Below, one piece after another: positions 48,198-58,989 of a stretch of 64,000 nucleotides of DNA. The translations under genes and the position numbers were made by a program. This DNA comes from Catellatospora coxensis (GTDB taxonomy: Bacteria > Actinomycetota > Actinomycetes > Mycobacteriales > Micromonosporaceae). Where the stretch lies: positions 1 to 64,000 of the forward strand of contig NZ_BONI01000009.1 in assembly GCF_016862635.1 (NCBI RefSeq). Direction: 5' to 3'. The number at the start of each line of letters is the position of its first letter. The stretch's first letter is position 1. The notes under the pieces are model-generated. The model worked only from the letters and a program-made list of their open reading frames with translations. It was not told the origin of the DNA and ran no database searches.

Positions 48198-48280
48198 CAC
48201 GAGGGGCCGTCGAACTCTGCTGTGACCGGTGTGACGGGCGGGATTCTGGGTGCAGACCCCCGACGTCCAAGGAGACGACG

Positions 48281-48925
48281 ATGAAGCGCAGGACCCTCGA
48301 CCTCATGTTCAGCCTCGGCGGCGTGGCCGTCGCCATCCTGCTGACGATCGCCGGCGTGGTGCTGTCGGCCAACGCCGACTTCGCCCGCACCTACGTCGCC
48401 GACCAGCTCACCCAGCAGAACATCACGTTCAAGACCCTGGACACCCTCACCCCCGAGGAGCGCGAGCAGCCGGGTCTGGTCGAGTACGCCGGGCAGCAGC
48501 TGACCACCGGCAAGCAGGCCGAGGTGTACGCCAACGAGTTCATCGGCCTGCACCTGAAGAACACCGCGGGCGGCAGGACCTACGCCGACCTGGGCGTCCC
48601 GCAGGCCCAGCTCCGCACCCAGGTCGCCGAGGCGGCCAAGAACAACGACCCGAACCTCGCCGCCCTGCAGCAGCAGCTGACCGACGTCACCGCGCAGCGG
48701 GAGACCGTGTTCAAGGGCGAGACCCTGCGCGGCCTGCTGCTGACCACCTACGGATTCAGCGAGTTCGGCGTCAAGGCGGGCCAGGCCGCGCTGGTCGCCT
48801 ACCTCGCCGCCCTGGTGCTGGCGCTGCTGTCGGTCGCGGGCTTCGTGCACGCCTTCACGACCCCCCGCACGGTGGCCTTCGCCCCGGTCGAGGCCACCCC
48901 GGGCCGCGAGCGGATCGACGCCTGA
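48281..48925 (+). CDS. Two-helix membrane protein of the DevR island
   Basis: A 214-residue protein. ATG 48281 has AAGGAG six bases upstream. One membrane helix at residues 10-30 (LGGVAVAILLTIAGVVLSA) and another near 168-190 (ALVAYLAALVLALLSVAGFVHA) flank an external domain of about 135 residues with helical, Gln-rich segments (VAEAAKNNDPNLAALQQQLTDV). Similar proteins of unknown role occur among actinobacterial membrane proteins of stress regulons. It is preceded by a DosR-type box and followed by a perfect hairpin. Confidence 0.78.
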   Translation: MKRRTLDLMFSLGGVAVAILLTIAGVVLSANADFARTYVADQLTQQNITFKTLDTLTPEEREQPGLVEYAGQQLTTGKQAEVYANEFIGLHLKNTAGGRTYADLGVPQAQLRTQVAEAAKNNDPNLAALQQQLTDVTAQRETVFKGETLRGLLLTTYGFSEFGVKAGQAALVAYLAALVLALLSVAGFVHAFTTPRTVAFAPVEATPGRERIDA

Positions 48926-48936
48926 GGCACCGGTCC

Positions 48937-48970
48937 CTGGGGCGGCCCGCCGTTTGGCGGGCCGCCCCAG
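48937..48970 (+). terminator. Hairpin after the DevR-island membrane-protein gene
   Basis: A perfect 15-base stem (CTGGGGCGGCCCGCC at 48937-48951, complement at 48956-48970) with loop GTTT, 12 bases after the stop. Confidence 0.75.
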
Positions 48971-49107
48971 CCGTCTGCCCAGGCGATTCACAGCGGAACA
49001 CGGCAATTCTGTGGACTCGTACAACCATGCGCCGCCCGGGTTCCGTTATGGACAGAGGCACGCCGGTCACTCCCTCGACGGCGGCCTCGATCCTGAAAGG
49101 AGTCGGT

Positions 49108-52100
49108 GTGTTCCACATCGGACCCCGAAATCTCCTGCTCGCGCTGCTGATCGCGGTGCTCGTCGCCTCGGTCGGCGGCGCGGGCACCGGTGCCGCCGAG
49201 CAGCCCGCCGGGGCCGCGCCCGCGGCTCCCACCCTGCTGCCGGCCGGCAAGCAGTACACGGTGACGCTGCTGACCGGCGACGTGGTGACGGTGCAGACGC
49301 GGCCGCAGGGCTGCCCGCTGGTGTCGGTCCGGCCGGCGAAGCCGAGCGGCGTGCTGCACCGCAACTGCGGCCCCGACGGGCACGTGCGGGTCGTGCCGGC
49401 GCAGGCCGCTGCGCTGATCGGCTCGGTGCTGGACGAGGCGCTGTTCGACGTGACCACCCTGATCCTCGAAGGCCACGACGACGCGCGGGCCAAGGACATC
49501 CCGCTGATCGTGCGGCAGGGCAGCGGGCCGCAGGCAAGGCAGTCGCTGACCGCAGGGCTCGACCGCACGCGCGAGCTGGCGAGCATCGGGGCCGTCGCCG
49601 GACGCCGGCCCAAGGCGAAGGCCGCCGAGTTCACGACCATGCTGTCGCAGCTCACCACTGCCCGTACGGCGACCGGCTCCGGCACCCGGGTGTGGCTGGA
49701 CCGCCAGGTGCGGGCCACAGCCGAAGCGGGCGGCGCGGGCCTCGACGCCAACCTGCGCCAGGTACGCGCGCCGCAGGCGTGGGCGGCGGGCTTCACCGGC
49801 CGGGGCGCGAAGGTGGCGGTGCTCGACACCGGCGTCGACTTCACCCACCCCGACCTGAAGGGCCGCGTCACCCAGTGGGCCGACTTCAGCACCGAGGACG
49901 GTGACGGCGTCGACCGGTTCGGGCACGGCACCCACGTCGCGGCCACGATCGCGGGCACGGGCGCGGCCTCCGGCGGCGCGCGGCGCGGTGTCGCCCCCGA
50001 GGCCGACCTGGTGATCGGCAAGGTGCTCGACGACTACGGGTACGGCACCGACTCGCAGATCATCGCCGGGATGGAGTGGGCGGCCACCCGCGCCGATGTG
50101 ATCAACATGAGCCTGGGCGGCTGGGAGCCGAGCGACGGCACCGACCCGCTGTCACTGGCCGTGGACGCGCTGACCGAGCAGCACGGCGCGCTGTTCGTGG
50201 TGGCCGCGGGCAACGACGGCCCGGCGGACGGCACCGTGTCGTGGCCCGCCGCGGCGGCCTCGGCGCTGACCGTCGGCGCGGTGGACGCCGCCGACGTGCC
50301 GGCGGACTTCTCCGGTCGGGGCCCGCTGGTCAACACGTGGGCCGCCAAGCCCGAGCTGGTCGCACCGGGCGTGGAGATCGTCGCCGCGCGGGCGGCGGGC
50401 ACCGGCATCGGCCGGGTGATCGACGCCCGGTACACGGCCGTGTCCGGGACCTCGATGGCCGCCCCGCACGTCGCGGGCGCGGCCGCGATCCTGGCGCAGC
50501 GGCACCCGGACTGGAGACCCGCGCAGTACAAGGCCGCGCTGGTGGGAGCGAGCGAGCCGCTGGCCGGCGCGGACCCGTACACCGTCGGCGCGGGCCGCCT
50601 GAACGTCGTCCGTGCGCTGAGCGGCGCGGTCAGCGAGCAGCCGGTCGTCAACCTCGGGACGTTCCCGTACCCGCAGTCCGGCATCGCGCGCACGACGCTG
50701 TCGTGGTCGAACACCTCAGCCGAACCCGCCAAGCTCCGGTTCAGCGTCGCCGTCACCGACCGGCACGGGACGGCCGTGCCCCGCACCGCGACCCTGTCGG
50801 CGTCGTCGGCGGTCCTCGCGCCCGGCGCGAAGGCGACGGTCGGCCTGCGGATCGACCGGTCCCGGCTCGCGGCCGCGCCGGGGCTGTACACGGCCGTGGT
50901 CACCGCGCACACGTTCGGCGGAGGGTTCGTGTCCAGCACGCCGGTGACCTTCTACGTGGAGCCGCCCAGCTACGACCTGACGCTGACCTCCACTCCCCTG
51001 CCGCAGACCCCCGAGGGCTCGGACGTGTACGTCTCCGCGATCGTGGTGAACCTCGACGACCGCGCGCTGTACGCGCGCCGGTGGGATGTCCCGCCCGGCG
51101 AGACCGTGACGGCACGGGTGCCCGCCGGCCGGTACAGCATCGTGTCGTCGATCTGGGACCTGGGCGAGGCGTCGTCGCGGATGGGCCTGGTCGGCGATCC
51201 CGATGTGACGGTGGCCGCGGACACCGCGTTCGTGCTCGACGGCGCGCGGGCCAAGCCGGTGACGGCCGCCGTGGACGGAGTCGAGACGGTGGCGAACGCG
51301 GTCGGGCTCACCTACGAGCAGGTGCCCCGGCACGGGCCGGGCTGGTCGGACTTCGCCTTCGCGTGGGGCGCGGACGCGGGCAAGGGCAGCGTGTTCGCCA
51401 CCCCGACCGACGGGCCGGGCGTCGGCACGTTCGACGCGTACGCCTCGTACTCGCTGGTCGCTCCTGGTGACGGGCCCAGCCCGTTCCTGTACGACCTGAT
51501 CCGGCCGCTGGGCCACCGGATCCCGGACGATCTCGCCTACCGGGTCGGCGTAGCCGAGCAGGCCCGGCTGGCCCGCATCGACCAGCGCTTCCACCTGCTG
51601 GACAAGGAGGACACGTACGTCGGCCACAAGCGGTACGGGTACAGCCCGACGGGCGGGTACATCGCCGAGGCGGACACCCACGGCCTGTCCGGTGACCGCG
51701 TGGACTACGTCACGCCCGACTACTCCTGGAAGGACGAGGCGTTCTACGACGCGAACATCGGCTACGGCGTGGTGACGCAGGAGTCGCTGCGCCGGTACGA
51801 GCCGGGCAGCCGGCAGCAGAAGGTGTGGGTGCGCCAGCCGCTGCGGCCGGACTGGTACGACGATCCGGCGCCGTCGTCGAGCGGCTGCCGGCCCGCGCCG
51901 GTGTCGCGCACCCGCGGCGTGCTGCATGTCGAGCTGGTCGACCTGACCGACGAGCATCAGCGTTTCGACTGCCTGGGCTGGGGCGACGGCTGGTCGGAGA
52001 CGACCCGGACGCTGACCCTGCACCGCAACGGGGTCCTGCTGGGACAGTACCCGGAGTCGTTCGGCGACTTCGCGATCCCGGCGGCCGCGGGTGCCTACCG

Positions 52101-52518
52101 GCTCACGTACGACCTGGACGCGAGCGTCCTGCTGCCGGTCTCCACCCGGGTGACCACCGCGTGGACGTTCCGGTCGGCCGGGCCCGCGGGCACCGGCAGC
52201 GCCCCGGTGGCGCTGCTGTCGGTCGACTACGCGCTGCCGCTGGACGTGGCGAACCGGCCGACCGGGGGCGCCGCCGAGTTCAAGGTCCGCCAGGCGCACG
52301 GCGTGCCCCGGCAGGACGTCACGTCGTTCCGGCTGTGGACCTCCTTGGACGACGGCGCCACCTGGCAGCCGGCGGCCGTGACGGCCCGCGGTGACGGCTT
52401 CGGCGCGACGCTGCCGACGCCGTCGGCCGGGCAGTCGGTGTCGTTGCGGGTCAAGGTAGCGGCCTCCGCGGGCAGCGCGGTGGAGCAGACCATCATCCGG
52501 GCGTATCGCGCCGGCTGA
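49108..52518 (+). CDS. Secreted S8 subtilisin-like protease
   Basis: A 1136-residue exported protease. GTG 49108 has AAAGGAG five bases upstream and leads straight into a signal peptide (NLLLALLIAVLVASVGGAGTGA); longer starts at 49027 and 49048 lack this. A pro-region runs to about residue 220. The catalytic triad is Asp240 (VAVLDTGVDFTHPDL), His273 (GHGTHVAATIAG) and Ser449 (SGTSMAAPHVAG), with oxyanion Asn in VVAAGNDGP. About 650 residues of beta-rich C-terminal domains follow (VNLGTFPYPQSGIARTTLSWSN onward), as in large actinobacterial extracellular subtilases. Expected role: degradation of external protein. Confidence 0.92.
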   Translation: MFHIGPRNLLLALLIAVLVASVGGAGTGAAEQPAGAAPAAPTLLPAGKQYTVTLLTGDVVTVQTRPQGCPLVSVRPAKPSGVLHRNCGPDGHVRVVPAQAAALIGSVLDEALFDVTTLILEGHDDARAKDIPLIVRQGSGPQARQSLTAGLDRTRELASIGAVAGRRPKAKAAEFTTMLSQLTTARTATGSGTRVWLDRQVRATAEAGGAGLDANLRQVRAPQAWAAGFTGRGAKVAVLDTGVDFTHPDLKGRVTQWADFSTEDGDGVDRFGHGTHVAATIAGTGAASGGARRGVAPEADLVIGKVLDDYGYGTDSQIIAGMEWAATRADVINMSLGGWEPSDGTDPLSLAVDALTEQHGALFVVAAGNDGPADGTVSWPAAAASALTVGAVDAADVPADFSGRGPLVNTWAAKPELVAPGVEIVAARAAGTGIGRVIDARYTAVSGTSMAAPHVAGAAAILAQRHPDWRPAQYKAALVGASEPLAGADPYTVGAGRLNVVRALSGAVSEQPVVNLGTFPYPQSGIARTTLSWSNTSAEPAKLRFSVAVTDRHGTAVPRTATLSASSAVLAPGAKATVGLRIDRSRLAAAPGLYTAVVTAHTFGGGFVSSTPVTFYVEPPSYDLTLTSTPLPQTPEGSDVYVSAIVVNLDDRALYARRWDVPPGETVTARVPAGRYSIVSSIWDLGEASSRMGLVGDPDVTVAADTAFVLDGARAKPVTAAVDGVETVANAVGLTYEQVPRHGPGWSDFAFAWGADAGKGSVFATPTDGPGVGTFDAYASYSLVAPGDGPSPFLYDLIRPLGHRIPDDLAYRVGVAEQARLARIDQRFHLLDKEDTYVGHKRYGYSPTGGYIAEADTHGLSGDRVDYVTPDYSWKDEAFYDANIGYGVVTQESLRRYEPGSRQQKVWVRQPLRPDWYDDPAPSSSGCRPAPVSRTRGVLHVELVDLTDEHQRFDCLGWGDGWSETTRTLTLHRNGVLLGQYPESFGDFAIPAAAGAYRLTYDLDASVLLPVSTRVTTAWTFRSAGPAGTGSAPVALLSVDYALPLDVANRPTGGAAEFKVRQAHGVPRQDVTSFRLWTSLDDGATWQPAAVTARGDGFGATLPTPSAGQSVSLRVKVAASAGSAVEQTIIRAYRAG

Positions 52519-52534
52519 GTCACGTCTCCGGTTC

Positions 52535-52576
52535 TCGTGCCGGGCTGGGCGAACGCCTGGCCCGGCACGACTTTTT
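52535..52576 (+). terminator. Rho-independent terminator after the subtilase gene
   Basis: Arms TCGTGCCGGGC (52535-52545) and GCCCGGCACGA (52560-52570) pair perfectly and are followed by CTTTTT, giving a textbook intrinsic terminator. Confidence 0.88.
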
Positions 52577-52600
52577 GCTGCCGAATCCCACTAATTGGAA

Positions 52601-52642
52601 CTCCTATTTCACAGATAGGAGATGTGGGATAACGTCTCCACC
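52601..52642 (+). promoter_or_regulatory. Promoter/operator of the sulfonate operon
   Basis: A perfect inverted repeat CTCCTAT-TTCACAG-ATAGGAG (52601-52621) lies just downstream of TTGGAA (52595-52600), a possible -35 box, and is followed by GATAAC near 52628-52633 as a possible -10. A repressor site overlapping the promoter of a sulfur-scavenging operon is a reasonable inference; no regulator gene is adjacent. The 12 bases GGAGATGTGGGA (52618-52629) recur upstream of the truncated ssuD at 60.5 kb. Confidence 0.5.
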
Positions 52643-52735
52643 ATGACCAGCCGACAGACCCCGCTCGACGCCACCGCAGTCGCGGTGTCGCGGGGCTGCT
52701 GCCGCTGCTGGACCACCGCGCGCGGCTGCTGCTGA
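52643..52735 (+). CDS. Cysteine-rich leader peptide of the sulfonate operon
   Basis: A 30-codon ORF (ATG 52643 to TGA 52733-52735) ends with Gly-Cys-Cys-Arg-Cys-Trp, six residues, then Cys-Cys and stop, so five of its last twelve codons are TGC. An in-frame ATG at 52622 would give 37 residues. It lies 173 bases upstream of ssuA. Polycysteine short ORFs that attenuate sulfur genes by cysteine supply are known in mycobacteria, so ribosome stalling at the Cys codons probably controls the operon. Start choice is uncertain because no good ribosome site is seen; it may be leaderless. Confidence 0.7.
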   Translation: MTSRQTPLDATAVAVSRGCCRCWTTARGCC

Positions 52736-52908
52736 GCAGCGCCGCCCCCTCTCGCGACGAAGCCGACCGGCTGCCGCCTCCCTCCCGATCCACGGCCGCG
52801 CCCTGCCGCGCCGTGCTCGTCCACACCCGACCGACGCGCACCCCGTCGCCGGGACAACCCTCATGCCGCCTTCCATCTCTGCGTCCCCGCACGACGAAGG
52901 AGACCCCT
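52736..52908 (+). promoter_or_regulatory. Leader between Cys-rich ORF and ssuA
   Basis: A C-rich stretch of 173 bases without a credible gene. C-rich, G-poor sequence such as CCTCCCTCCC could be a rho-loading site or could pair with the AAGGAG before ssuA. The attenuator structure was not resolved by eye. Confidence 0.4.
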
Positions 52909-53970
52909 GTGAAACCCCCATCCCTGGACCGCCGCACGTTCCTGTCCGCCACCCTCGGCGCGGTCGCGTTGAGCCTGACCGGGTGCGCCCAGGACGAGAC
53001 CCCGGCCGCCGCGCTGGCCCTCACCGCGCCGCTGCTGGAGTCCACGCCGACCGGCACCAAGCTCGTCGTGGGCGACAAGGAGCACCAGAAGGCGATCGAG
53101 TTCTCCGGCGAGGCGAAGAACCTGACGTTCGACGTGGAGTGGGCCAACCTCAGCGGCGGCCCGCAGACCCTGGAGGCCTTCCGCGCCCGGGCGCTGGACA
53201 TCGGCTCGGTCGCCGACATCCCGCCGATCCACTCGCACTGGACCGGCATCCCCACCAAGATCGTGGCCTCGAAGTTCCGCCAGGACCCGCTCGACCACGC
53301 CGTCTACCGGCTGGGCATCGCGCCCGGGGTCGCCGTCGCCACCCTCGCCGACCTGCGGGGCAAGAAGGTCGCCTACAGCCCGGGCCAGGCCCAGGGCGCG
53401 CTGGTGCTGCGGGTGATGCACAAGGCCGGGCTGGCAAAGAAGGACGTCGACCTGATCGAGCTGCCGAGCACCGGCGACGTCTACGCCAATGCGCTGGCCG
53501 CCCGGCAGGTCGATGTCGCCCCGATCGGCGGCGTGCAGGTCAAGCGGTACGAGTCCAAGTACGGCAAGGACGGGGCGACGACGATCGCGCACGGGCTGCG
53601 CGACGACCCCGGTCACCTGTACGCGCCGGTCACCGTGCTCGCCGACCCGGCGAAGGCGGCCGCGATCCGCCAGTACGTGCAGGTGTGGGCGCGCGCCTGG
53701 CGCTGGCGCGAGGCCAACCCCGACGAGTGGATCGACCGGTACTACGTCAAGGACCAGGGGCTGACCGTCGAGGACGGCCGGTGGATCGTGGCCAACGCCG
53801 GTGTCGCCGACATCCCGCCGACGTGGAACGACGCGATCTCCCGCCACCAGGAGACCATCGACCTGCTCGCCAAGGAGACCGGCAACAAGCCGCTCAAGGC
53901 CGAGGACCTGTACGACCGGCGGTACGAGACCGTCGCCGCCGACGCGCTGGCCGCCGGAGGTGCCCGGTGA
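52909..53970 (+). CDS. ssuA: Sulfonate ABC transporter substrate-binding lipoprotein
   Basis: A 353-residue protein starting at GTG 52909, AAGGAG six bases upstream. The signal combines a twin-arginine-like LDRRTFLSATL with a lipobox LTGC, so it is a lipoprotein facing outward. The binding-protein fold of the SsuA/TauA/NrtA group is clear: LDIGSVADIPPIHSHW, ASKFRQDPLDHAVYRLG, LRGKKVAYSPGQAQGALVLRVM, FLxA-like VDVAPIGGVQVKRYES. It binds an organosulfonate for uptake. Its stop overlaps the permease start (GTGA). Confidence 0.88.
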   Translation: MKPPSLDRRTFLSATLGAVALSLTGCAQDETPAAALALTAPLLESTPTGTKLVVGDKEHQKAIEFSGEAKNLTFDVEWANLSGGPQTLEAFRARALDIGSVADIPPIHSHWTGIPTKIVASKFRQDPLDHAVYRLGIAPGVAVATLADLRGKKVAYSPGQAQGALVLRVMHKAGLAKKDVDLIELPSTGDVYANALAARQVDVAPIGGVQVKRYESKYGKDGATTIAHGLRDDPGHLYAPVTVLADPAKAAAIRQYVQVWARAWRWREANPDEWIDRYYVKDQGLTVEDGRWIVANAGVADIPPTWNDAISRHQETIDLLAKETGNKPLKAEDLYDRRYETVAADALAAGGAR

Positions 53971-54806
53971 CCGCCTCCGTGCTCGCCCGGCCGCGCACGT
54001 CCGCGGCTGCCGTACCCGCCCGCAGGCCGCGCCGCCGGCTCGGACCCGGCCGGCCCCTCCCGTTCGGGGCGGTCCTCGGGCCGCTGCTGCTGCTGTCGCT
54101 GTGGGCGATCGGCTCCGCGGCGGGCTGGCTCGACACCCGCACCCTGTCCGCGCCCTGGACCGTCGTGACCACGGCGGGCGAGCTCATCGCCGACGGCCGC
54201 CTGCAGGACAACCTCGCCGTCTCGGCCCAGCGGGCCGGGCTCGGCCTGGCCGTCGGCACCGCCATCGGCACCGTGCTCGCGCTGCTCTCCGGGCTCAGCC
54301 GCTGGGGCGAGGCGATCCTCGACGGGCCGGTCCAGATCAAACGGGCCATCCCGGGCGTCGCGCTGATCCCGCTGCTCGTGCTCTGGCTCGGCATCGGCGA
54401 GCAGATGAAAATCATCACGATCGTGCTCGGCGTTTTCGTGCCGGTCTACATCCACACCCACAACGGCCTGCGCAGCATCGACAGCCGCTACGTCGAGCTG
54501 GGCGAGTCGCTGCGGCTGCGGCCCGGGGTGTTCCTGCGCCGGATCGTGCTGCCCGGGGCACTGCCGGGCTTCCTGCTCGGGATGCGCTTCGCGGTCGTCG
54601 GGGCGTGGCTGTCCCTGGTGGTCGTCGAGCAGATCAACTCCACCAGCGGCATCGGCTACATGATGGAGCTGGCCCGCCAGTACGGCCAGACCGACGTCAT
54701 CATCGTCGGCCTCGTGCTGTACGGCCTGCTCGGGCTGCTGTCCGACGGCGCCGTACGGCTCGCCCAGCGGAAGGCGCTGTCATGGCGACGCACCCTGGCG
54801 GACTGA
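53967..54806 (+). CDS. ssuC: Sulfonate ABC transporter permease
   Basis: A 279-residue inner-membrane permease starting at GTG 53967, overlapping the upstream stop by four bases. Six hydrophobic helices are visible, with the binding-protein-dependent EAA-type loop in [31 protein letters not shown], where the ATPase docks. It belongs to the SsuC/TauC/NrtB type. Its N-terminal 35 residues are basic and Pro-rich. It should form the channel for the SsuA substrate. Confidence 0.9.
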
Positions 54807-55516
54807 CCGGCACCCGCACGGTACGCACCCGGGACCTGCGGCGCGGCTTCGGCGACCGCCTCGTCCTGGACGGCCTCGACCTGGAGATCGGCGCGGGCGA
54901 ATTCGTCGCGCTGCTGGGCCGCAGCGGCTCGGGCAAGAGCACCCTGCTGCGCGCGCTCGCGGGACTGGACCGCGACGTGGCCGGCTCCGGCGCGATCGAC
55001 GTGCCGGAGAAGTCCTCGGTCGTGTTCCAGGACGCCCGGCTGCTGCCCTGGCAGCACGTGCTCGACAACGTCGTGCTCGGCCTGTCCGGGCCGGACGCCC
55101 CGCAGCGCGGCCGGGCGGCCCTGGCCGAGGTCGGCCTGTCCGGGCGCGAGCAGGCCTGGCCGCACCAGCTGTCCGGCGGCGAGCAGCAGCGCGTCGCGCT
55201 GGCCCGCGCCCTGGTCTCCGAGCCGGACCTGCTGCTGGCCGACGAACCGTTCGGCGCGCTGGACGCGCTGACCCGGCTGCGCATGCACGACCTGCTGCGC
55301 GAGCTGTGCCGCCGCCACCGGCCCGCGGTCCTGCTGGTCACTCACGACGTCGACGAGGCCGTCACCCTCGCCGACCGGGTCCTGGTGATCGACCAGGGCC
55401 GGATCACCGTCGACACCACCATCGACCTGCCCGAACCGCGCTCCCACCGGCAGCCGCGGTTCCAGGCGTACCGGGAGTCGCTGCTGCGCTCGCTGGGCGT
55501 CGAGACGGAAGGATGA
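54782..55516 (+). CDS. ssuB: Sulfonate ABC transporter ATP-binding protein
   Basis: A 244-residue ATPase starting at ATG 54782 within the permease end (25-base overlap). Walker [11 protein letters not shown]-loop [11 protein letters not shown], signature [15 protein letters not shown], Walker [13 protein letters not shown] and the H-loop [11 protein letters not shown] are all intact. Match is to SsuB. It powers import with SsuC. Its stop overlaps the next gene's ATG by four bases. Confidence 0.93.
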
Positions 55517-56847
55517 CCATGCTGCACCTCAACGCGTTCCTGATGGGCGTCGGCCACCACGAGGCCGCCTGGCGGCTGCCGGAGAGCGACCCGTTCGCGC
55601 AGACCGACGTCGAGCACTTCAAGCACCTGGCCCGCATCGCCGAACGGGGCCGGCTCGACTCGCTGTTCCTCGCCGACAGCCCCGTGCTGTGGAACAGCAT
55701 CGGGCGGCGGCCGTCCGGCACCCTCGAACCGACCGTGCTGCTCACCGCCCTGGCCGGGGCGACCGAGCACATCGGGCTGATCGCGACCGCGTCGACCACC
55801 TACAACGAGCCGTTCAACCTGGCCCGCCGGTTCGCCTCGCTGGACCACATCAGCGGCGGCCGGGCCGGCTGGAACATCGTCACCACCGCGGGCGTGGACG
55901 CGGCCCGCAACTTCAACCTCGACGAGCTGCCCGCCCACCGGGAACGGTACGAGCGGGCCGCCGAGTTCGTCGACGTGTCGCTGAAGCTGTGGGACAGCTG
56001 GGACGACGCCGCGCCGCTGGGCGACAAGGACGGCGGCCGGTGGGGCGACGACACGCTGCTCTACCCACCGGAGCACACCGGACGGCACTTCCGGGTCGCC
56101 GGGCCGCTCAACGTGCCGCGCTCGCCGCAGGGCCACCCGCTGCTGGTGCAGGCGGGCTCGTCGGAGGACGGCAAGGAGCTGGCCGCCCGCTACGCCGAGG
56201 CGGTCTTCACCGCCCAGCAGACCCTCGCCGAGGCCCAGGCGTTCTACCGGGACCTCAAGTGGCGCACCGCGCAGGCCGGCCGCGACCCGGACACGATCAA
56301 GATCCTGCCGGGCATCGTGCCCGCGATCGGGTCCACCGAGGCCGAAGCCCTCGCGCTGGAGGCCGAGCTGGACCGGCTGATCAAGCCGGAGTACGCCCGA
56401 ATGCAGCTCGCCACCACCCTGCGGGTCGCCCCCGAAGACCTCGACCTGGACCGGGAACTGCCCGCCGACCTGCCCGACGAGGACGAGATCGAGGGCGCGA
56501 AGAGCCGGTACACGCTGATCGTCACGCTGGCCCAGCGCGAGCGGCTGACCGTACGCCAGCTCATCGGCCGCCTCGGCGGCGGGCGCGGCCACCGCACCTT
56601 CGCCGGCACTCCGGAGCAGGTCGCCGACGCCATCGAGGAGTGGTACCGCAGCGGCGCGGCCGACGGCTTCAACATCATGCCGCCGGTGCTGCCGTCGGGG
56701 CTGGCGACGTTCGTCGACCACGTCGTGCCGATCCTGCAGCGCCGCGGCCTGTTCCGCACCGAATACACCGGCAGCACCCTGCGCGAGCACTACGGCCTGC
56801 CCCGCCCCGCCAACCGGCACACACGGCAGCCCGCCGCCGCCCACTGA
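55513..56847 (+). CDS. NtaA/SnaA/DszA-type FMNH2-dependent monooxygenase
   Basis: A 444-residue bacterial-luciferase-fold protein. Blocks typical of the NtaA/SnaA/DszA/SoxA branch: LNAFLMGVGHHEAAWRLP, SPVLWNSIGRRPSGTLEPTVLLTALA, GLIATASTTYNEPFNLARRFASLDHISGGRAGWNIVTTAG. Members use reduced FMN from a separate reductase to oxidise sulfones, nitrilotriacetate or similar compounds. In this operon a role in breaking C-S bonds of an organosulfur compound is the best inference. No FMN reductase gene is seen in the window, so the reductant must come from elsewhere. Confidence 0.88.
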   Translation: MTMLHLNAFLMGVGHHEAAWRLPESDPFAQTDVEHFKHLARIAERGRLDSLFLADSPVLWNSIGRRPSGTLEPTVLLTALAGATEHIGLIATASTTYNEPFNLARRFASLDHISGGRAGWNIVTTAGVDAARNFNLDELPAHRERYERAAEFVDVSLKLWDSWDDAAPLGDKDGGRWGDDTLLYPPEHTGRHFRVAGPLNVPRSPQGHPLLVQAGSSEDGKELAARYAEAVFTAQQTLAEAQAFYRDLKWRTAQAGRDPDTIKILPGIVPAIGSTEAEALALEAELDRLIKPEYARMQLATTLRVAPEDLDLDRELPADLPDEDEIEGAKSRYTLIVTLAQRERLTVRQLIGRLGGGRGHRTFAGTPEQVADAIEEWYRSGAADGFNIMPPVLPSGLATFVDHVVPILQRRGLFRTEYTGSTLREHYGLPRPANRHTRQPAAAH

Positions 56848-56866
56848 CCCGCAGAGAGGACCCACC

Positions 56867-57910
56867 ATGGTCGACTACCGCCCCTTCGGGCGCACCGGCG
56901 TGCAGATCAGCACGCTGACGCTCGGCGCGATGAACTTCGGCGCCCGGGGCAACCCGGACCACGAGGACGGCATCCGCATCATCCACCGGGCTCTCGACGA
57001 GGGCATCAACGCCATCGACACCGCCGACGTCTACTCCCACGGCGAATCCGAGCAGATCGTCGGCAAGTCGCTGGCCGGCGGGCGGCGCGACGACGTCTTC
57101 CTCGCCACCAAGTTCCACGGCCAGGTCGGCGAGCACCCGCACCACCGCGGCAACTCCCGCCGCTGGATCCACCGGGCCGTCGAGAACAGCCTGCGGCGGC
57201 TGGGCACCGACTGGATCGACCTGTACCAGGTGCACCGGCCCGAGCCGGACACCGACTTCGACGAGACCCTCGGCGCGCTGTCCGACCTGGTCCGCCAGGG
57301 CAAGGTCCGCTACCTCGGCACGTCCACGTTCGAGCCGTCCGCGATCGTGGAAGGGCAGTGGATCGCGCAGCAGCGGGGCCGGGAGCGGGTGGTCAGCGAG
57401 CAGCCGCCGTACTCGATCCTGGCGCGCGGCGCCGAACGCGAGGTGCTGCCGGTGGCGCAGCGGCACGGCCTGGCGGTGATCCCGTGGAGCCCGCTGGCCG
57501 GTGGCTGGCTGTCCGGGCGGCCGCAGACCGGGGCGGACGGGCCGGTGTCCCGCCGCGCCGAGCGCTTCCCGGCGCGGTACGACCCGGCCGTGCCGGCCAA
57601 CGCGAGCAAGCTGACCGCCGTCGCCGAGCTGACCGCGCTGGCCGACGAGGCGGGGCTGTCGCTGATCCACCTCGCGCTCGCGTTCGTCCTGCAGCACCCG
57701 GCCGTCACCTCGGCGATCATCGGGCCGCGCACCCTGGCGCACCTGGAGTCCCAGCTCGGCGCGGGCAAGGTGACGCTGTCCGCGGACGTGCTCGACCGCA
57801 TCGACGCCATCGTCGCGCCGGGCACCACGCTGAACCAGGCCGACGCCGGCTACGTGCCGCCGTCGCTGGCCGACCCCGCGCAGCGCCGCCGCGGCGCGAA
57901 GGAGGCGTGA
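56867..57910 (+). CDS. Aldo/keto reductase
   Basis: A 347-residue TIM-barrel NADPH oxidoreductase. Catalytic tetrad: Asp51 and Tyr56 in DTADVYSHGESE, Lys82 in ATKFHG, His123 in LYQVHRPEPD. Conserved NADPH site near IIGPRTLAHLESQLGA. AGAGAGG-type ribosome site precedes ATG 56867. In this operon it probably reduces the aldehyde left when a monooxygenase cleaves a sulfonate, or acts on a related carbonyl; the substrate is not determined by sequence. Confidence 0.9.
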   Translation: MVDYRPFGRTGVQISTLTLGAMNFGARGNPDHEDGIRIIHRALDEGINAIDTADVYSHGESEQIVGKSLAGGRRDDVFLATKFHGQVGEHPHHRGNSRRWIHRAVENSLRRLGTDWIDLYQVHRPEPDTDFDETLGALSDLVRQGKVRYLGTSTFEPSAIVEGQWIAQQRGRERVVSEQPPYSILARGAEREVLPVAQRHGLAVIPWSPLAGGWLSGRPQTGADGPVSRRAERFPARYDPAVPANASKLTAVAELTALADEAGLSLIHLALAFVLQHPAVTSAIIGPRTLAHLESQLGAGKVTLSADVLDRIDAIVAPGTTLNQADAGYVPPSLADPAQRRRGAKEA

Positions 57911-58989
57911 TGAGCGCCGAGTTCCTCTGGTACATCCCCAACCAGGCCAGACCCGGCCATCGCGGCGACGACGCCGTCGAGGGCCACAACAGCCTGCAGA
58001 CCCTGGTCGGGCACGCCAAGGCGCTGGAGGAGCACGGCTGGGGCGGGGCGCTGCTCGGGACCGGCTGGGGACGGCCGGACACCTTCACCGTCGCCACCGC
58101 GCTGGCCACGCAGACCACGACGTTCCAGCCGCTGATCGCGATCCGGCCCGGCTACTGGCGGCCGGCCCACTTCGCCTCGGCCGCCGCGACCCTGGACCAC
58201 CTCACCGGCGGGCGGGTGCTGGTCAACATCGTGTCCGGCAAGGACGACCTGGCCGCGTACGGCGATCAGGAGGGTGAGCAGGCGCAGCGCTACGACCGCA
58301 CCCGGGAGTTCCTCCGGATCGTCCGCAGGCTGTGGACCGAGGAGAACGTGACGTACCACGGGGAGCACTTCGGGGTCACCGGCGCCACCGTGGTGCCCCG
58401 CACGGTCGTACGCGGCGACCGCAGGCACCCGCGCCTCTACTTCGGGGGCGCGTCCGAGGCCGCCGAGCAGGTCGCCGCCACCGACGCCGACGTGCAGCTG
58501 TTCTGGGGCGAGCCGCTCGACGGCGTACGCGAGCGCATCGAACGGCTGCGGGAACTGGAGCAGAAGCTGGAACGCGAGCACGCGCCACTGGAGTTCGGGC
58601 TGCGCATCACCACGCTGGTCCGCGACACGACGGAGCAGGCCTGGGCCGACGCCGAGGCCAAGGTCGCGAAGATGGCCGACGGGCAGGACCCAGCGGCGCG
58701 CGACCCGCGCTGGCGGGCCGCCGTCGGGCAGCGGCGGCTGCTCGACCTCGCCGCCCGCGGCGAGGTGCTCGACGACAACCTGTACACGGCTCCCGGCCGG
58801 TTCGGCGGTGGCGGCGCGGGCACCACCTGGCTGGTCGGATCCGCCGAGGACGTGGCCCGTTCGCTGCGGCGGTACCGGGAACTCGGGGTCACGCACTTCG
58901 TGCTGTCCGACACGCCGTACCTGCCGGAGATCAGACGTCAGGGCGAGCGGCTGCTGCCGTTGCTCCGCGAGGAACCGGTCACGGGTTGA
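57910..58989 (+). CDS. ssuD: Alkanesulfonate monooxygenase (SsuD-type)
   Basis: A 359-residue FMNH2-dependent enzyme with luciferase fold. ATG 57910 shares its A with the TGA of the aldo/keto reductase gene. Signature blocks: FLWYIPNQARPG, WGGALLGTGWGRPDTFTVATALA, FQPLIAIRPGYWRPAHFASAAATLDHLTGGRVLVNIVSG, YDRTREFLRIVRRLWTEENVTYHGEHF, LYFGGASEAAEQVAA. The canonical reaction turns a sulfonate plus O2 into an aldehyde and sulfite. It completes the operon ssuA-ssuC-ssuB-monooxygenase-AKR-ssuD. Its 3' end overlaps a convergent gene by 11 bases. Confidence 0.9.
   Translation: MSAEFLWYIPNQARPGHRGDDAVEGHNSLQTLVGHAKALEEHGWGGALLGTGWGRPDTFTVATALATQTTTFQPLIAIRPGYWRPAHFASAAATLDHLTGGRVLVNIVSGKDDLAAYGDQEGEQAQRYDRTREFLRIVRRLWTEENVTYHGEHFGVTGATVVPRTVVRGDRRHPRLYFGGASEAAEQVAATDADVQLFWGEPLDGVRERIERLRELEQKLEREHAPLEFGLRITTLVRDTTEQAWADAEAKVAKMADGQDPAARDPRWRAAVGQRRLLDLAARGEVLDDNLYTAPGRFGGGGAGTTWLVGSAEDVARSLRRYRELGVTHFVLSDTPYLPEIRRQGERLLPLLREEPVTG

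Follow-up and report, generated by a model that had tools for sequence, protein, structure and literature searches.

A conserved cysteine-rich leader ORF, likely responsive to cysteine, in front of the ssu operon of Catellatospora coxensis and its Micromonosporaceae relatives

Does the short cysteine-rich open reading frame in front of the sulfonate utilization genes of Catellatospora coxensis act in cis as a cysteine-responsive leader, and by which output step might it do so? Here, this question was addressed computationally for a window of 64,000 nucleotides, i.e., the whole stretch of DNA analyzed, which belongs to a genome of 9.35 Mb. The first-pass annotation of this DNA had described an ORF of 30 codons from ATG 52643, or of 37 codons from ATG 52622, ending in Cys-Cys-Arg-Cys-Trp...Cys-Cys-stop and separated from ssuA by 173 nt. 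Re-reading of the letters and of the translation reproduced the coordinates, the lengths and the C-terminus exactly, and the distance holds with ssuA counted from its GTG codon (Table 1). When both strands of the window were scanned for ORFs of 10-45 codons with ATG or GTG starts and at least four Cys among the last 14 codons, the leader was the only ORF found; such clustering of Cys codons near the stop is one of the traits expected of mycobacterial-type leaderless polycysteine attenuators.

Table 1. Features of the leader region and of the ssu operon in the window.
Feature	Position	Strand	Remarks
Intrinsic-terminator-like hairpin	52535..52570	+	16 pairs then CTTTTTG; 3' of the S8 protease gene 48250-52518
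Operator-like inverted repeat CCTA-N9-TAGG	52603..52619	.	overlaps the -35 region
Candidate weak -35 hexamer TTCACA	52608..52613	+	by eye; 16 nt 5' of the -10 element
-10 element TAACGT	52630..52635	+	7 nt 5' of the leader ATG
Leader peptide ORF	52643..52735	+	ATG 52643, TGA 52733-52735; 30 codons; MTSRQTPLDATAVAVSRGCCRCWTTARGCC then stop
C-rich, G-poor spacer between leader and ssuA	52736..52908	+	50% C and 25% G; resembles a Rho utilization site
Probable scar left by loss of a flavin reductase gene	52864..52908	+	C-terminal remnant in frame with ssuA; reads CRLPSLRPRTTKET
ssuA-like sulfonate-binding protein	52909..53970	+	
ssuC-like permease	53967..54806	+	
ssuB-like ATPase	54800..55516	+	start approximate
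ORF with NtaA/DmoA-family FMN-dependent monooxygenase	55306..56847	+	match from residue 75
Aldo/keto reductase	56867..57910	+	
ORF with SsuD-like alkanesulfonate monooxygenase	57358..58989	+	match from residue 188, near 57.9 kb

The label of a sulfonate operon given in the first-pass annotation was borne out by the presence of SsuA-, SsuC- and SsuB-like proteins, two LLM monooxygenases and an aldo/keto reductase. The NCBIfam scores of the three Ssu-like proteins lie below the curated cut-offs, as does that of the SsuD-like monooxygenase, and the NtaA/DmoA-family monooxygenase exceeds its cut-off. Since the NtaA/DmoA match begins only at residue 75 of the ORF, the start of this gene is probably near 55.5 kb.

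The protease ORF on the 5' side stops at 52518, with the terminator-like hairpin behind it, so the leader and the ssu genes probably have their own promoter. A TANNNT box 6-7 nt 5' of the start was present in 23 of the 28 leader homologues, and none was found at 5-9 nt in L166, L169, L170, L171 and L173; given this spacing, the leader transcript is probably leaderless with its start at 52643 and not at 52622. The 37-codon variant found no support: an in-frame ATG at that place is present in only 8 of the 28 homologues (by eye), and in the window the stretch following ATG 52622 houses the -10 box. Several relatives carry TTGACA at the place of the -35 hexamer (by eye), and a generic consensus promoter scan recognized no promoter at the leader. 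Furthermore, the inverted repeat CCTA-N9-TAGG was found over the -35 region in all 27 leader promoters tested and, by eye, in L176, too. Among the best 80 of more than 553 SsuA loci, 18 named loci contain the repeat within 1.5 kb upstream, several of these matches being sites other than the leader's own, and none contains it within 1.5 kb downstream; spacings of 7, 11 or 13 were found in none of the same 80 loci. The operator-like site suggests a second layer of control. The repeat also lies 5' of ssuA in some relatives that have no leader.

Within Catellatospora, seven of 11 genomes possess ssuA, and the DNA pattern of the leader occurs once in each of these seven and in none of the other four, while a backwards control pattern returned nothing in all 11. 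In five genomes ssuA is the first gene and is preceded by the same 30-residue peptide, with one extra Cys in one of them; in G002 and G007 a flavin reductase gene (a PF01613 match in G002) precedes ssuA, and the leader, carrying some substitutions, lies 5' of the flavin reductase gene. A search of 300 Micromonosporaceae genomes with a profile of 13 leader peptides gave 29 matches at E<1e-10 in 28 genomes, including 28 intact ORFs, and the 18 weak matches (E 0.001-0.01) were excluded from the leader counts. The one match outside the 28 ORFs, L172 (G025:C17:169755), is a degenerate copy 5' of a flavin reductase homologue, in which the start codon is missing and the frame runs on. With a cut-off of E<=1e-180, set afterwards at a gap in the ranked list, SsuA was present in 23 of the 300 genomes; the leader accompanies it in 19 of them, as compared to nine leader-bearing genomes among the remaining 277, one of the nine copies being degenerate. 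Loss of the ORF in relatives that keep the operon, named in the first-pass annotation as evidence against a leader, was in part encountered, namely in four of the 23 genomes (G072, G132, G178 and G215), where no leader ORF was found in approximately 2.9 kb upstream. We read these absences as loss of the module. By eye, the operator and a -10-like box are retained directly 5' of ssuA in G072 and the operator in G132, and G178 and G215 have an imperfect operator. At 16 sampled loci of the same family with a more distant SsuA, seven leaders of the RRxHID type were found, and the other nine loci, including eight of eight from genus g51, showed no convincing leader.

The leader tracks the 5' end of the operon, lying 5' of the flavin reductase gene where this gene comes first and 5' of ssuA where it has been lost. 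The spacer 5' of ssuA reads MSAIAEPLTPVDPGTL...RPSTKES in L153 (C. vulcania type) and MPLV..PLTPTHPD...STKES in L154 and L155; these look like the two fused ends of a lost flavin reductase gene, and the scar is clearer there than in the window. Judging from these remnants, flavin reductase was probably the ancestral first gene, in the order leader, flavin reductase, ssuA. Homologues of flavin reductase, ssuA, ssuC or ssuB lie within 1.5 kb downstream of 24 of the 28 intact leaders, and placement at sulfur-acquisition genes extends to L166, which precedes an LLM monooxygenase, and to L176 (G312:C51:8560-8652), the second leader copy of its genome, which is followed by a sulfatase, a formylglycine-generating enzyme and a second sulfatase. 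The latter locus was outside the tblastn of downstream genes and the 27 tested promoters and was read separately. The two remaining leaders, L157 and L164 (the latter by eye), lie 5' of a PAP2-like gene, which in L157 scores 20.7 bits in Pfam, under the cut-off of 27.2. A PAP2-like gene fragment was also seen by eye between the leader and the LLM monooxygenase of L166. The PAP2/haloperoxidase-like gene of these three loci may belong to a sulfur operon.

The 28 intact ORFs, 27 of them distinct, encode 22 distinct peptides. Among the distinct ORFs the mean dN was 0.16, the mean dS 0.49 and the mean dN/dS 0.33, with dN below dS in 346 of the 351 non-independent pairs, and third codon positions varied approximately twice as often as first or second positions. 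The leader ORF evolves as a coding sequence, a further trait expected of attenuators of the mycobacterial type. Twelve residues are invariant in all 27 distinct ORFs (L8, A14, V15, S16, R17, G18, C19, R21, W23, T24, G28 and C30), only two of which are Cys. C20 is conserved in 24 and C29 in 23 of the 27, and Cys is found at position 22 in five and at position 27 in seven. The homologues have two to six Cys in 30-33 residues; the two present in each of L169, L170 and L173 are few for a plain sensor of Cys codons. Moreover, codons 16, 17, 18 and 21 vary synonymously, which argues that the residues are constrained and not the RNA alone, and selection appears to be directed at the peptide core AVSRGC.R.WT...G.C and not only at the Cys codons. 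This pattern extends further than the Cys-codon count of the first-pass annotation and in part opposes it. The window peptide and the peptide of one relative had no match in Pfam. In NCBIfam the window peptide remained without a match up to E=1 and also up to E=10, and did not reach the curated score of the leader families NF042933, NF042934 and NF042936, and the leader of a Micromonospora relative matched solely a lantibiotic model (E 0.18, 12 bits vs. a cut-off of 75).

In the region 52400-53000 the sole terminator-like site is the hairpin 5' of the leader, and no U-tailed hairpin follows the leader; the combination of a GC hairpin and a U run between leader and first gene that defines a classical attenuator is absent. 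The RNA fold after the leader is ordinary (z -0.53, with 64 of 200 shuffles folding at least as well), and a search of 50000-58000 against Rfam gave nothing above threshold and one sub-threshold match inside ssuA. The spacer is C-rich and G-poor, with a C-skew of 0.34 on the transcript strand; a skew as high as that of its first 150 nt is found in 0.2% of segments on the plus strand and in 0% on the minus strand. In all 28 homologues the first 150 nt of the spacer have a C-skew of 0.16-0.36, and the last 150 nt have a mean of 0.23 and a minimum of 0.13 (n=28), the spacer ends being assigned by a start-site pattern that runs too far or fails at some loci and is unsafe in L157, L160, L166 and L173. 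Control 5' intergenic segments (n=22) had a mean C-skew of 0.009, with three at 0.16 or above; these controls are few in number and were taken from crude gene calls, and the homologues are related to one another. Rho could use such a stretch. C-richness of a 5' region does not in itself demonstrate the action of Rho.

We consider it likely that the leader ORF is a cis-acting cysteine-responsive leader of the ssu operon. RNA polymerase would begin at or next to the ATG, and a ribosome would translate the 30 codons. With ample Cys-tRNA the ribosome would reach the stop codon and depart, baring the C-rich RNA behind it, on which Rho, the favoured factor, would act to terminate transcription before ssuA. 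During cysteine shortage the ribosome would stall at the terminal Cys codons 29-30, which adjoin the stop, and hide the beginning of the C-rich stretch, so that the polymerase passes; the resulting sulfonate uptake and desulfonation would provide sulfite for cysteine. Given the invariance of several residues other than Cys, the nascent peptide itself may help to set the stall. Termination by Rho as the output step is put forward tentatively, at somewhat less than an even chance. The attenuator interpretation of the first-pass annotation is likely right in kind, with the refinements given above. A conserved, coding, promoter-proximal and Cys-rich ORF located mostly at sulfur-acquisition operons speaks for it, as does the presence in the same genome of a member of a mycobacterial Cys-rich leader family (Ms5788A); its absence from four of the 23 genomes with a close SsuA speaks against it. 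Further points against an attenuator are the two leaders 5' of the PAP2-like gene, for which no sulfur role is evident, the degeneration of L172 although a flavin reductase homologue comes next, the lack of a U-tailed terminator or unusual fold after the leader, and the three homologues with only two Cys.

That the ORF arose by chance would be conceivable in GC-rich DNA, where out-of-frame TGC runs are common, but 28 intact homologues under purifying selection and the absence of any strict match on the opposite strand of the 80 SsuA loci (best 80 of more than 553) leave this explanation with a negligible probability. A small trans-acting peptide that binds a metal or takes part in redox reactions through its Cys residues would account for two to six Cys among 30-33 residues and for the conserved residues; its location 5' of operons of mostly sulfur genes and the lack of a Pfam match for the window peptide and one relative make it very improbable. 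In translational attenuation, a rival output step, the transcript would always be made and the leader RNA would keep the first gene's Shine-Dalgarno site hidden as long as no stalled ribosome opens it, a mode for which there is precedent in M. smegmatis, where several cysteine biosynthetic genes are reported to be under translation attenuation (PMC13236596). A long-range GACGAC/GTCGTT helix ending near the Shine-Dalgarno site ranked as the best 6-bp helix in the 17 of 28 spacers that were aligned, and was reached by 3 of 300 column shuffles, for which the search range was narrower than for the real alignment. It is, however, complete in only 9 of the 17 spacers and is regarded as a lead. The 45 nt that follow the leader paired with the Shine-Dalgarno region no better than shuffled sequences did (mean z 0.10, n=28), so this candidate anti-Shine-Dalgarno pairing was rejected, and covariation gave no support, with a positive term on both folded alignments, i.e., that of Catellatospora (5 sequences) and a mixed one of Micromonospora and Catellatospora (12 sequences, with rows L146, L150 and L162 cut at bounds differing from the rest). 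We regard translational attenuation as less likely than not.

An arrest peptide in the strict sense, in which the nascent chain, beyond hungry Cys codons, stalls the ribosome in a sequence-specific manner, a small sulfur metabolite perhaps acting as co-signal, can be combined with either output step. It would explain why L8, A14, V15, S16, R17, G18, R21, W23, T24 and G28 show no change among all 27 distinct ORFs even though most of their codons differ at the third position, and why some homologues hold the invariant residues with only two Cys; unrelated leaders also fix non-Cys residues (R10, D14, A21). On the other hand, all sequences come from one bacterial family, and limited divergence may partly explain the invariance; we regard this possibility as rather unlikely. 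The same reserve applies to a more far-reaching reading, in which the core AVSRGC.R.WT...G.C would be a new class of sequence-specific regulatory nascent peptide reading cysteine shortage via chain and codons, and would belong to a portable cassette, made up of operator, leaderless promoter and leader, which the Micromonosporaceae would have installed in front of sulfonate, sulfatase and other operons, some lineages having lost the leader and kept the promoter region. The preferred reading remains a cysteine-responsive leader with Rho as its putative effector.

The genome of the window encodes three further Cys leaders of the NF042934 type. The C74 leader MSPLLTKRRAVDLCRVATCLCCPVL, 5' of a rhodanese gene, belongs to the Ms5788A family (60.4 bits vs. 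a cut-off of 45), the C29 leader lies 5' of a sulfatase gene (38 bits vs. a cut-off of 27), and the C146 leader, 5' of sulfite reductase and PAPS reductase genes, scores 23.1 bits, below 27. By eye, the ATG of C74 and that of C29 are preceded at 7-8 nt by a TANNNT box. NF042934 was matched above its cut-off in 11 of 11 Catellatospora genomes vs. 0 of 14 control genomes, and at E<=10 it matches 10 of the 14 controls. A wider survey covered 2.5 kb upstream, less at contig ends, of the best 80 of more than 553 SsuA loci, to which all locus counts in this paragraph refer. The strict scan was positive at 16 of 80 loci on the forward strand and at none on the opposite strand, 12 of the 16 being homologues of the window leader in Catellatospora, Rhizocola and Micromonospora; the relaxed scan was positive at 32 forward and 3 reverse, and some of the forward matches are surely due to chance. 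Peptides resembling RRxHVDxxRxxSAxC occur at many other loci (Nonomuraea, Kribbella, Streptomyces, Plantactinospora, Microtetraspora and more). Five of them were tested and all match NCBIfam leader models, one passing the cut-off, and profile comparison of the ssu leader with eleven peptides of this type revealed no similarity. No leader was found by the scans at L066, L067, L069, L074 and L077, and the loci of Mesorhizobium, Devosia, Inquilinus and Bordetella gave only scan matches regarded as chance. In the Arthrobacter group, Cys-rich short ORFs led by a Shine-Dalgarno site, e.g., MPYTTTRTTGTHTSCSCCCRRH, were seen at L104 (-241), L115 (-296) and L122 (-472 from the ssuA match), i.e., at three loci forward and none reverse; they are possibly convergent cysteine leaders of different sequence. 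A distinct Cys-rich short ORF, MTAVGKFTQRRDLVPTRAFRACCCCR, lies at -1405 from the ssuA match in Phytomonospora (L083), with no TANNNT at the usual distance. The leader of metNIQ in S. lividans, MSTTSDRTPATEATTTPGARCMCRRMCAF, is described as a methionine leader that contains several Met and Thr residues (PMC8079986); it includes CMCRRMC and could be a cysteine leader.

In the literature searched, mostly titles and abstract openings with few subscription journals, the matches listed included neither a report of this Micromonosporaceae leader nor one of a cysteine leader before ssu genes. The ssu leader likely represents a new family of peptides within a regulatory kind that is already known. If true, control by cysteine leaders would be extended by a peptide family unnamed in NCBIfam to sulfonate and sulfatase operons. 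The natural variants, namely gene-loss scars, relatives that have no leader, shifting Cys and fixed non-Cys residues, make codon hunger vs. nascent-chain arrest, and likewise Rho vs. Shine-Dalgarno masking as output step, testable.

Polycysteine leaderless short ORFs of mycobacteria have reportedly been described by Canestrari and co-workers in 2020. Like these and the mycobacterial cys leaders, the ssu leader is a short ORF with Cys codons near the stop, 5' of sulfur genes, with no intrinsic terminator seen, and it shares with the former a leaderless-type promoter, here predicted. Likewise, NF042934 (cis_reg_atten), NF042933 (Ms5788A) and NF042936 (Ms4527A) comprise short ORFs that lie in front of sulfur genes and carry Cys close to their ends, but the ssu leader matches none of them. 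It is unlike the mycobacterial leaders in belonging to a Micromonosporaceae peptide family, the mycobacterial peptides being compared through NCBIfam models alone, and in its sulfonate and sulfatase operons, the operator-like site over the -35 region and its loss in some relatives. The tryptophanase attenuator tnaC of E. coli senses excess Trp. For the leaders of mycobacterial cys operons, Rho has been proposed in a prediction that its authors rated as weak, with tnaC as an analogy (Seliverstov et al., 2005; PMC1262725). The ssu leader would differ from tnaC in responding to Cys shortage, and would resemble it in that a ribosome stalled close to the stop codon of the leader would mask a Rho site, here a putative one.
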